DNA of 64,000 nucleotides from positions 62,001 through 126,000 of the forward strand of contig NZ_FOAZ01000025.1 of assembly GCF_900109465.1 (NCBI RefSeq), given 5' to 3'. The translations under genes were made by a program, and so were the position numbers. The stretch is from Streptacidiphilus jiangxiensis. GTDB taxonomy: Bacteria > Actinomycetota > Actinomycetes > Streptomycetales > Streptomycetaceae. The notes under the pieces were generated by a model, which was not told the origin of the DNA, made no database searches, and was given only the letters and a program-made list of their open reading frames with translations. This document shows, one piece after another, positions 49,650 through 52,901 of this stretch (its first letter is position 1; every line of letters begins with the position of its first letter).

Positions 49650-50888
49650 TCAGACCCGCAGCAGCGCCGCGCGCAGCGCCAGGGGCGGGTGGGTGAGCCA
49701 CCCCAGCGTGGTGCGCCGGAGGCGGGCGCGCGGGGACGGGTCGTCGTGGTGGAGTGCCCGGTGGAGTCGGATCCAGTCGGTGGCCGCGTCGTGACCGGCC
49801 CAGCGAAGGGCCTTGGCGTCGCAGGCGAGCTCGGAGATCCAGCAGGTGGCGGTCCACAGCAGCAGCCCGCCGCCGACGAGGACGCCCGCGGCCGCGAGGG
49901 AGCCGCTGGCAGGGGCCAGCCAGATCAGGGTCACCAGGAGTGTCGCCGCCACCCGGCGGATACGGGGGTCGTTGCGCAGGAGGTGGGACACCTCGTGGCG
50001 GGACACGAAGGCCAGCGCCTTCGGGCGGGCCAGATGGGCCTGGGCGATCACGATGTAGGCGCGGTGTCCGGCCCGGCTGCAGCGGCTGCGCACCTTCTGA
50101 CCCTCGCGGTACAGGTGAACCTCGGTCATGCCGTAGTCGGCGAGCAGCAGGGGCAGCTCGGGTGGCAGCGTGGCGGGCTGCGTCGGCGCGGCGCGTCGGC
50201 GCTCTGCCATGCGGTCGAAGGCGCGCTGCGTGCGGAGCGTGCCGAGCGCCACGGAGACCGGCGGGGCGGCGACGGCCGCCGCGATCAGCGGGGCCTCGCC
50301 CAGAATGCCCTGCCCGATCCGGATGCCCACGAAGGCGCAGGCCGCGTAGGCGAGCAGGAGCACGGCCAGCGTGCGGGTCACGGTGCCGCGCCGGGGGAGG
50401 GCTCCCGCAGGAGGCCCCTGGTCCGGTAACGAGGTCGGCCCGGCCGCGGCAGGGAGATCGGTGGTGGCGAGGGTGGTGCGCGCCTGCTCGGCGACGCGAT
50501 CGGCGTCCACGCCGTTGGCCCGGAGGGTCCGGCGGGCCTGGCCGTCCGGCGCCGCCAGCACGCCGAGCAGCAGGTGCAGGGGAGCGATCACGTTGTGCCC
50601 GGCCGCCAGCGAGGCGCGCAGGGTGTCCAGCAGCGACTGCTTGGCCTCGTCCGTGAACGGGATGTTCCCGGCCGGCCCGGGTGGGCCCGCGACGTGCAGT
50701 GTCTCCGCGCGCAGCCTGGCGGCCCGGAGCACCCGCGTCGCCGGCTCGTCACCGGGGAGGAGCAGGATCCCGCCGAGCAGGTCACTGCTCTCGATCCGGT
50801 CGCTGCCGCGTCGTCGTGCCGACTCCTGGGCCAGCACGACGACCTGTCGCGCACCTGACGTGAACCGATCGAACACCATTCCCCCCAT
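49650..50888 (-). CDS. Clp_N-domain fused to an M48-type membrane metalloprotease
   Basis: 412 residues with an unusual architecture. Residues 5-140 resemble the ClpA/ClpC N-domain ([20 protein letters not shown], then the second helical repeat). Residues 173-215 form two membrane segments. The catalytic HEVSH is at 298-302 within FVSRHEVSHLLRNDP, followed by more membrane segments (313-350) and ELACD (353-357), the third zinc ligand region. The tail THPPLALRAALL is M48-like. Starts at 50888, 50879 or 50876 are possible. It lies downstream of an ABC pair on the same strand. Confidence 0.82.
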   Translation of the reverse strand: MGGMVFDRFTSGARQVVVLAQESARRRGSDRIESSDLLGGILLLPGDEPATRVLRAARLRAETLHVAGPPGPAGNIPFTDEAKQSLLDTLRASLAAGHNVIAPLHLLLGVLAAPDGQARRTLRANGVDADRVAEQARTTLATTDLPAAAGPTSLPDQGPPAGALPRRGTVTRTLAVLLLAYAACAFVGIRIGQGILGEAPLIAAAVAAPPVSVALGTLRTQRAFDRMAERRRAAPTQPATLPPELPLLLADYGMTEVHLYREGQKVRSRCSRAGHRAYIVIAQAHLARPKALAFVSRHEVSHLLRNDPRIRRVAATLLVTLIWLAPASGSLAAAGVLVGGGLLLWTATCWISELACDAKALRWAGHDAATDWIRLHRALHHDDPSPRARLRRTTLGWLTHPPLALRAALLRV

Positions 50889-51003: not shown

Positions 51004-52134
51004 TCAGACGCTCAGTGCCGCAGCCGCCAGCAACCCCGCGCCGGCGGCGGCGGCCAGGACGACCGCGCCCGCCGCGGCCGTGCGGAGGGCGACGGATCCC
51101 TGCAGGACGGAGGTCGGCGAGCCCATGCGTCGCAGCGGCGTGTACGCGGCGCGGTGGGCGCCGGCGAGTTCGGCCAGGCGGGTGAGGAGCGCGCCGAGGA
51201 CGCAGAGGGCGACCAGGCAGGCCTCGACGAGGGGGAGCGGCCCCAGGCGCCGGTGGGGGTCGTCGGCGTACTGGTACCAGGCGACCGCGCCGAGCGCGGC
51301 CGCGACGGAGAGGACGGCGAGGGGAGTGCCGAGGCGCCAGGCCTGGGCCTGGAGCCCGCGGCCGGCGAGGAGGCGGGTGGCCCGGGGGCGACCCCAGGCG
51401 AGCGCCTGTCCCGCGCCGTAGAGCAGGACGGGGACGGCGAGGGCGATGCCGGTGGTCGCGACGAACCAGCCGACGGCCGCCGCCTCGGGCGCGTTCACCC
51501 GGACGGCGGTCACCACGATGAGCGTGCCGAGGGCGGGCAGCCCGGCTGCGAGCGCGATGCGGCGCAGAGTGGGGCGGCGCTGCGGCTGGTCGGAGCCGTC
51601 GACGGGGATGACGTCGGAGGGTCGGACCGCGGCCGCCGCGGCGACACCGCCGAACAGCGGGACCAGCGCGAGCAGCGTGACGGTGCCGGCGGCCGGCAGG
51701 GAGCCGCGCGTGCCGAGCGCGTCGTCGAGACGGCCACCGGGCACCAGGTCCACGACGTGGGCGCGCAGCAGCAGGAAGCCGACGAGGGCGACCACCGCGC
51801 CGAACGCGCAGGCGAGGGCCATCTCCCCGGCGAGCAGCAGCCGCATCCGCACCGGGCCGACACCGGCCGCGACCAGGCCTGTCATCCGTTCGGGCTGCTG
51901 CAGCGGCAGAGCGCGGGCCCAGGCCCCGGCGAGGTAGGCGACGGCGGCAAGAGCGGGCAGGCACCACAGCAGCCGGTCCAGCGCCGGTCCGGCCGGGGCC
52001 GGTGCGGGGGTGGAGACGGCGCGGCCGAGGGCGCGCAGCAGCAGCGCGGCCACGATCGCCGACGCGACGCTGGTCAGCGTCCAGCGCAGCAGGTCCAGCG
52101 CACGGTATCCGCGCGCTACACGGAGGTAGAACAC
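51004..52134 (-). CDS. ABC transporter permease, FtsX/MacB-like
   Basis: 376 residues with about eight to ten hydrophobic segments, beginning MFYLRVARGYRALDLLRWTL. The C-terminal segment LRTAAAGAVVLAAAAGAGLL and a large central loop fit FtsX-like permeases. No peptidase or known domain was seen. Its start overlaps the end of the ATPase gene by 19 bp. Substrate unknown. Confidence 0.75.
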   Translation of the reverse strand: MFYLRVARGYRALDLLRWTLTSVASAIVAALLLRALGRAVSTPAPAPAGPALDRLLWCLPALAAVAYLAGAWARALPLQQPERMTGLVAAGVGPVRMRLLLAGEMALACAFGAVVALVGFLLLRAHVVDLVPGGRLDDALGTRGSLPAAGTVTLLALVPLFGGVAAAAAVRPSDVIPVDGSDQPQRRPTLRRIALAAGLPALGTLIVVTAVRVNAPEAAAVGWFVATTGIALAVPVLLYGAGQALAWGRPRATRLLAGRGLQAQAWRLGTPLAVLSVAAALGAVAWYQYADDPHRRLGPLPLVEACLVALCVLGALLTRLAELAGAHRAAYTPLRRMGSPTSVLQGSVALRTAAAGAVVLAAAAGAGLLAAAALSV

Positions 52135-52901
52135 GTAGGGGCGTCCTCTTCGAGCTCACTCAGCGCGACGGCGTCCCGGGCGTCGACAGGGGTGGCGAGT
52201 CGTCCATCGGCCATCACCGCCACCCGGTTGGCATATCTGGCCACGCTCGCGTCGTGCGTCGCCAGAATAAGCGTGATCTTGTGCGATCGCGACGCGGTGA
52301 GCAGTATCCGCATCACCTGGTCCTGCGACTCGCGGTGCAGGGGGGCCGTCGGCTCGTCGGCGAAGACCACCGCGGGCTGTGCGGCGAGCGCCCGGGCGAC
52401 GGCGATCCGCTGGCGCTGGTCCTGGAGCAGCTCGGCGGGGCGGCGCTTGGCGCAGTCGGCGACGTCGAGCCGTTCCAGCCACTCGGCGGCGGAGGTCGCG
52501 GCGATCTTGCGGGAGGTGCCGGCCAGCAGCATCGGCAGGGCGACGTTCTCACGGGCGTTCAGCTCCGGCACGAGCTGCGGCTCGGGGCCGACGTAGCCGA
52601 AGCGTTCCCGGCGCAACCTCTCCCGTGCCGTTCGGCCGAGCGTGTGAACGGGGGAGCTGTTGAACCAGATCTCGCCCTCGTCGGCCGGGAGCATTCCGGA
52701 GAGCACGTCGAGCAGGGTGGACTTGCCGCAGCCGCGCGGCCCGGCCACCGCCAGGACCTCGCCCTCGCGGACGTTCAGGGAGACGCCACGCAGCGCCGGG
52801 GTGCCGTGGTGCGACTTGACCAGCGACCGTGCCCAGAGCACGTCGTTGTCGGGTGGTGCGACGCTCACGGCTTCCTCCGCCTCTGTGAGTGTGTGGCTCA
52901 C
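52116..52901 (-). CDS. ABC transporter ATP-binding protein with degenerate motifs
   Basis: 261 residues. Walker A GPRGCGKS is at 54-61 and Walker B VVFADEPT at 178-185 with Glu183 kept; the H-loop ATHDAS is present. But the signature LSGGQ is replaced by LLQDQ (158-162), the Q-loop Gln is Pro in GYVGPE (Pro106), and the D-loop SALD is replaced by APLH. It is otherwise like LolD/MacB ATPases. The coupling with the permease suggests a working pair, perhaps with weak or regulated ATPase activity. Confidence 0.8.
   Translation of the reverse strand: MSHTLTEAEEAVSVAPPDNDVLWARSLVKSHHGTPALRGVSLNVREGEVLAVAGPRGCGKSTLLDVLSGMLPADEGEIWFNSSPVHTLGRTARERLRRERFGYVGPEPQLVPELNARENVALPMLLAGTSRKIAATSAAEWLERLDVADCAKRRPAELLQDQRQRIAVARALAAQPAVVFADEPTAPLHRESQDQVMRILLTASRSHKITLILATHDASVARYANRVAVMADGRLATPVDARDAVALSELEEDAPTCSTSV

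Follow-up and report, generated by a model that had tools for sequence, protein, structure and literature searches.

A candidate membrane zinc protease carrying a ClpC-type N-domain, encoded between rlmN and a conserved ABC gene pair in Streptacidiphilus jiangxiensis

Introduction

What would the N-domain of a Clp ATPase do on a membrane protease? The question is raised by a gene of Streptacidiphilus jiangxiensis that lies in a stretch of 64,000 nucleotides (contig NZ_FOAZ01000025.1, positions 62,001 to 126,000), the whole of which is referred to below as the window and numbered from its first letter. A sequence-only reading had described this gene as a Clp N-domain fused to an M48-like membrane metalloprotease and had suggested that the product could be a membrane protease recruited by adaptors. 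Here we analyze both halves of the predicted protein, their distribution among other genomes, and the genomic spot at which the gene is found.

Results

The fusion gene

The gene and its parts are located in the window as follows.

49650..50888, minus strand: Clp_N / M48-type membrane protease fusion gene, a single open frame of 412 aa
50874..50876, minus strand: GTG at codon 5, a possible true start, suggested by the sequence and by the N-terminus of ClpC
50445..50882, minus strand: ClpC-type N-domain of two repeats, residues 3-148, from matches to Pfam and to solved structures
50388..50462, minus strand: linker rich in Pro, Ala and Gly, approximately residues 143-167, read from the sequence
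50232..50387, minus strand: predicted transmembrane helices 1 and 2, residues 168-219, from hydropathy
49983..49997, minus strand: HEVSH, the zinc-binding HExxH motif, residues 298-302 (H, E and H invariant in 15 of 15 aligned sequences)
49833..49952, minus strand: hydrophobic stretch, residues 313-352, from hydropathy, presumably split into transmembrane helices 3 and 4
49818..49832, minus strand: ELACD, residues 353-357, with the presumed third zinc ligand E353 and with D357 (E and D present in all 15 sequences)
49680..49694, minus strand: THPPL close to the C-terminus, residues 399-403 (HPP present in all 15 sequences)

The frame is continuous over its 412 codons, and both halves look coding: GC3 amounts to 0.893 over the 150 codons at the start and to 0.940 over the 248 at the end, so the same frame is apparently used throughout. 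The GC content of the gene (0.752, compared with 0.648 to 0.783 in seven other genes) gave no sign of foreign composition. Four bases upstream of the GTG at codon 5 there is a run of six G (50881-50886), and initiation at this GTG would give fMet-F-D-R-F-T, a possible counterpart of M-F-E-R-F-T in the ClpC of the same genome. Patterns of sigma-70 promoters and terminators were not found at the fusion gene, which carries little weight in such a genome, and none of the models of anti-phage defence systems matched the fusion with an E of 0.01 or lower.

The N-terminal half is a ClpC-type N-domain

The claim of a Clp N-domain was borne out by a significant match to Pfam Clp_N (PF02861; 39.1 bits against a cut-off of 20.7, E 8.6e-10), strongest over residues 93-135 in the second repeat. 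The best PDB match was the ClpC1 N-domain 3wdb, aligned with residues 3-137 of the fusion (E 4.2e-17); the ClpC1 N-domain 6cn8 aligned with residues 5-148 (E 7.4e-17). With a score above the curated cut-off and both repeats aligned to solved N-domains, this half belongs with the ClpC-type N-domains, to which it shows a two-repeat likeness with 36-43% identity in the matches listed (mostly frames of ClpC length). In ClpC and ClpC1 the N-domain is followed by AAA+ modules, whereas the fusion has none. NCBIfam gave three Clp ATPase matches, all below their cut-offs and all on the N-domain.

The use of a Clp N-domain without an AAA+ ring is shared with mycobacterial ClpC2 and other Clp_N proteins that lack AAA+ modules. 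According to PMC10030653, ClpC2 protects mycobacteria by binding cyclomarin A, residues F2, F80 and E89 being critical; a protease domain, which the fusion has, is not mentioned for ClpC2 in the available part of that source. Clp_N and a protease are combined in cyanobacterial orthocaspases, among whose 473 putative members an accessory Clp_N is counted twice in the account given in PMC8283722, but there the protease is a caspase homologue and not a membrane zinc protease. Fusions of Clp_N repeats to vWA proteins also occur, though rarely, in conflict systems (PMC7159879). In the literature, available mostly as titles and abstracts, no fusion of Clp_N to M48 was apparent.

The genome of S. jiangxiensis itself contains at least four further Clp_N frames of 188 to 259 aa without AAA+ modules (L106-L109, on contigs C41, C40, C67 and C30); in L106 and L108 about 75-80 residues stand ahead of the Clp_N part.

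The C-terminal half resembles M48 membrane proteases

The protease half (residues 165-412) contains the motifs of M48, that is, HExxH (H298, E299, H302) and a downstream ExxxD (E353, D357); from what is known of clan MA we take E353 to be the third zinc ligand. In addition to the residues listed above, the W before ELACD, the A of ELACD, a G and the final R are invariant in the 15 aligned sequences. This alignment was made without L044, L049 and L097-L101, which look truncated or broken (L044 in its C-terminal part), and without L084-L088, L102 and L103, two of which read as ordinary HtpX-like proteases and the rest as more distant zinc proteases.

On the fusion protein both Pfam M48 (12.8 bits, cut-off 20.3) and Pfam M56 (12.5 bits, cut-off 31) remained sub-threshold, and the protease half alone had no Pfam match at E up to 0.01. 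In the aligned family, at E up to 0.01, M48 matched 11 of the 15 sequences and M56 matched two, the window's member being matched by neither; when three relatives were scanned singly against the M48 cut-off, two passed (20.8 and 24.6) and one did not (18.7). NCBIfam, including its HtpX equivalog, gave no match to the protease half. A profile search against solved structures returned only 3cqb, a homologue of HtpX, as a weak match (E 0.29), and a single-sequence AlphaFold2 model was too poor for use (mean pLDDT 41.5).

The protease half is best described as M48-like, with a presumed HtpX-like topology, on the strength of the matches of its relatives, the fusion's own protease half being sub-threshold. 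It shares with M48 HtpX-like membrane proteases the HExxH between hydrophobic stretches, the ExxxD and the HPP near the end, and differs from them by its M48 score below the cut-off, the missing NCBIfam match and the extra Clp_N. The M48-like membrane zinc protease of the sequence-only reading is thus upheld by motifs and family, but not by the protein's own Pfam score.

Hydropathy gave segments at residues 168-219, before HEVSH, and overlapping segments at 313-354, between HEVSH and ELACD. A further peak at 93-113 falls inside the soluble Clp_N domain, so these helix calls are rough. The loops of the two presumed helix pairs contain one and no K/R, respectively, whereas the other segments counted contain two to eight. 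Read by the positive-inside rule for the orientation of membrane proteins, the few K/R in these loops suggest an N-in arrangement with both the Clp domain and the zinc site in the cytosol; in HtpX the zinc site is on the cytosolic side.

The groove is kept and the pocket glutamates are replaced

Comparison with the ClpC of the same genome has shown that F2, R10, F80 and K85 are kept in the fusion, the equivalents of F2, F80 and K85 being F6, F78 and K83, while E31 is replaced by S35, E106 by L104, H77 by N75 and E89 by L87. The groove formed by F2, F80 and K85 is therefore common to the fusion and the N-domain of ClpC and ClpC1, whereas both glutamates of the phosphoarginine pockets (E32 and E106 in S. 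aureus numbering) are replaced (S35 and L104). As to the residues critical for cyclomarin, two of the three are kept (F6, F78); the third, E89, is kept in ClpC2 and lost in the fusion.

Both pocket glutamates are present in all 33 comparison Clp_N domains (17 of them distinct), a set of phmmer matches of more than 110 residues with E no higher than 1e-4 that excludes divergent Clp_N proteins and includes 31 domains from ClpC-like frames of 366 aa or more. Among seven aligned Clp_N proteins of this genome, three of which are also in the set of 33, five keep both glutamates, two (L106 and L112) lack the first, and in no case are both missing. The double replacement, judged by these alignments, is unusual within the compared set; the loss of one glutamate is not, since the position of E31 is also altered in the two proteins from the same genome.

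MecA is described as occupying both phosphoarginine pockets of the ClpC N-domain, and the groove and K85 as contact points for cyclic peptides and MdfA (PMC12583610); the cyclomarin pocket lies far from the sites for phosphoarginine (PMC9240326). Because the pocket glutamates used by MecA are both replaced, recruitment of the fusion by a MecA-like adaptor, which had been proposed for this protein, appears unlikely. By analogy with MdfA, an adaptor that uses the hydrophobic groove and K85 may serve instead. A protease directed at phosphoarginine was considered and is disfavoured, both pocket glutamates being lost.

The intact fusion was found in one genome

When the full-length protein was used as the query, both halves were matched only in the window's genome, among the matches listed for 199 relatives, 284 genomes of the order (those better than 1e-18) and 296 genomes of the phylum (those better than 1e-19); all remaining listed matches (E from 5.2e-21 to about 5e-18) end at residue 171 or earlier. 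The protease half was found in none of the 13 other genomes of the genus, for which all candidates were scored. It had matches in 11 of 393 other genomes of the family: seven were confirmed as relatives and four (L047, L048, L050, L051) are unconfirmed. The protease alignment as a query matched 8 of 394 genomes of the class, including the window's own, and 15 of 392 genomes of the genus of G294, including G294 itself, some of these matches being fragments or distant zinc proteases.

No Clp_N was detected beside the relatives of the protease half in 36 loci (phmmer with the Clp_N part as query, all frames of at least 80 aa), which overlap in part (L041, L080 and L090 are the same gene of G294) and most of which reach 1.5 kb to each side. 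In the same bacterial family, the loci L041-L046 and L091-L096 encode M48-like proteins that, in the members aligned, share the motifs with the fusion, with a best match of 42% over 137 residues (L041); unlike in the fusion, Clp_N was not found there. The M48-like family at large (L041-L046, L049, L091-L105) is sparse, often fragmentary, and by eye situated among accessory-looking genes; no constant neighbour was noticed by eye.

Plasmids yielded seven records for the full fusion protein, all matching the Clp_N half only, and none for the protease half at E up to 1e-3. On viral contigs the protease alignment gave 78 pattern stretches, none of which was confirmed. A contig scan identified one Gemmatimonadetes locus with a 26% match to residues 9-173 of the fusion.

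In summary, the intact fusion was seen only in this genome across seven overlapping surveys (1989 genome draws, the highest genome number being G1317), and the combination of Clp_N with a membrane zinc protease, unfamiliar to the sequence-only reading, is indeed rare. Except in the survey of the 13 genomes of the genus, scoring was confined to the best 6 to 9 candidates of each genome, and a fusion that has diverged strongly might therefore have escaped detection. The architecture looks new, and is built from known parts.

The fusion gene is an accessory gene beside a conserved ABC pair

Upstream of the fusion gene lie two genes that are conserved in the genus.

51004..52134, minus strand: membrane protein, taken as an ABC permease (matched by neither Pfam nor NCBIfam; conserved across the genus and outside the fusion unit)
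52116..52901, minus strand: ABC ATPase with the non-canonical signature LLQDQ (likewise conserved across the genus and outside the fusion unit)

The sequence-only reading had seen here an ABC pair with degenerate ATPase motifs. The pair is real, and in the window the ATPase has LLQDQ at the position of the signature, but its Walker A and Walker B motifs are normal. The canonical ABC signature is LSGGQ; all 13 aligned relatives have LLQDQ or, in some, LRQDQ, LRQDE or LRQEQ. The Walker A lysine is replaced by M in three relatives (L076, L077, L078), and in L079 Walker A is unreadable in the alignment. In G007 (L079) the permease homologue is split across frames, which may be decay or a sequencing error (the assembly is 76% complete).

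The permease was matched in 14 of 14 genomes of the genus, the window's included, and occurs together with the ATPase in all 13 relatives, where the protease half had no match, so the constant linkage between the fusion and the ABC pair that had been envisaged did not hold. In 12 of these relatives the permease and rlmN are convergent neighbours without the fusion; in the remaining one (G004) the piece ended before rlmN. A functional link between the fusion and the ABC pair was rejected (permease in 14 of 14 genomes, protease half in 1 of 14, gene absent from the 12 readable gaps). By its genomic context, the fusion gene is an accessory gene situated between rlmN and the conserved ABC pair and not a part of the transporter.

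The gap between rlmN and the permease gene varies in the genus: it is about 80 bases in G010, contains a small ORF in G006, and in G012 spans about 1.8 kb (L072:2692-4484) with genes that, from reading their translations, resemble a SAM methyltransferase and an XRE-cupin regulator. These extra genes in G012 suggest that the spot accepts insertions. A search for ends of a mobile element at the fusion gene found no clear flanking repeat; the best direct pair has 72% identity over 32 nt, and the inverted pairs, judged without a control, look like the level expected in GC-rich DNA.

A putative remnant of the Clp_N domain in a related genome

Genome G002 has the closest RlmN among those compared (97%), and its gap between rlmN and the permease gene is 301 bases long. 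A stretch of this gap aligns with residues 4-29 of the fusion with a score of 75, which was reached by none of 600 pieces of the window, 400 pieces from relatives (maximum 72) and 100 base shuffles (maximum 66); the other 11 readable gaps gave nothing above their own shuffles. The peptide APLHLLLG recurs downstream in G002 in another frame. Within the window and all loci examined, no occurrence was seen besides those in the fusion and in G002; the peptide includes the fusion's replacement of the second GTEH motif.

We read the G002 stretch as a decayed relic of Clp_N; no relic of the protease was seen in G002. Given this relic, the Clp_N domain of the fusion was probably present at the spot before the lineages of the window and of G002 parted. 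A DNA search of the insert against G002, in which 40 of 673 first-look candidates were scored, yielded 49 weak matches (the best at 1.3e-4), none of them listed on the syntenic contig C243. As the syntenic spot did not stand out in this search, the case for a remnant is made by the comparison at the protein level. The remnant suggests that the fusion gene is dispensable. Together with the high GC3 of both halves, the apparent decayed Clp_N piece at the same spot makes a frame misjoined in one strain unlikely, an objection that is weakened rather than removed as the remnant covers Clp_N and not the protease.

Discussion

We propose that the fusion would be a zinc protease of the M48 (HtpX-like) type, anchored in the membrane and facing the cytosol, with its ClpC-type N-domain as a built-in receptor that would work independently of ATP. 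The hydrophobic groove (F6, F78, K83), and not the phosphoarginine pockets, would capture peptides or exposed hydrophobic segments on the inner side of the membrane, and the flexible linker would pass the captured segments to the zinc site beside the transmembrane helices. We favour such groove-based capture over, in this order, a neutral fusion, an antibiotic decoy or sensor, a regulator of ClpC and a sensor of the M56 type; on the residues and motifs described above we hold it tentatively, at somewhat under an even chance. The topology, catalytic activity, use of the groove and hand-over of substrate are all inferred. The loss of E89, critical for cyclomarin binding in ClpC1, speaks against the groove, and with no intact homologous fusion found there is no conserved architecture to argue from.

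It is rather unlikely, but to be taken seriously, that two accessory parts were joined by chance and have no selected joint function. A single intact copy was seen, G002 retains fragments only, short fragments and frames interrupted by stops occur among the matches to the protease family, and the gap between rlmN and the permease gene is variable across the genus, all of which speaks for such a neutral fusion; the intact catalytic motifs and groove residues and the high GC3 of both halves are, however, unlike a decaying gene. The kept equivalents of F2, F80 and K85 would also suit a tethered N-domain whose groove binds ClpC-targeting cyclic peptides and either soaks them up or activates the protease, and the binding of cyclomarin A by mycobacterial ClpC2 (PMC10030653, as far as that source was available) provides a precedent. 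With leucine in place of E89 and no peptide-biosynthesis gene recognised adjoining the fusion, we consider this decoy or sensor unlikely.

A role as a membrane regulator of ClpC, in which the extra N-domain competes for the contacts of the ClpC resting state or for adaptors and thereby modulates ClpCP near the membrane, seems improbable. ClpC is encoded in the same genome, and K85, which is reported to pair with D356 in the resting state, is kept as K83; but mutation of the phosphoarginine-pocket glutamates, both lost in the fusion, is reported to destabilise that state (PMC12583610), and this genome already has four Clp_N proteins without AAA+ modules. Least probable is a BlaR1-like (M56) sensor protease that cleaves a repressor. 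The sub-threshold M56 score and the two M56 matches in the aligned family point towards it; against it, M48 fits most of that family, and no BlaI-type gene was recognised by eye, whether in the ORFs adjoining the fusion or in the surroundings of 13 relatives' loci.

Returning to groove-based capture, its broadest form would be a self-contained membrane protease that reads ClpC-type ligands (groove adaptors, unfolded segments, ClpC-targeting peptide antibiotics) at the membrane and cleaves without ATP, possibly as the strain's own answer to ClpC-directed antibiotics; we regard this extension as speculative and doubtful. If the N-domain does aim the protease, the fusion would amount to an experiment of nature in which the recognition of substrates is uncoupled from their unfolding by ATP. 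The loss of the pocket glutamates with retention of the groove yields a sharp prediction about which ligands the fusion uses. An N-domain that does aim the protease would also mean that a protease unrelated to ClpC can be guided by a ClpC N-domain, a point of interest for work in which this domain serves as the docking site of degraders and antibiotics.
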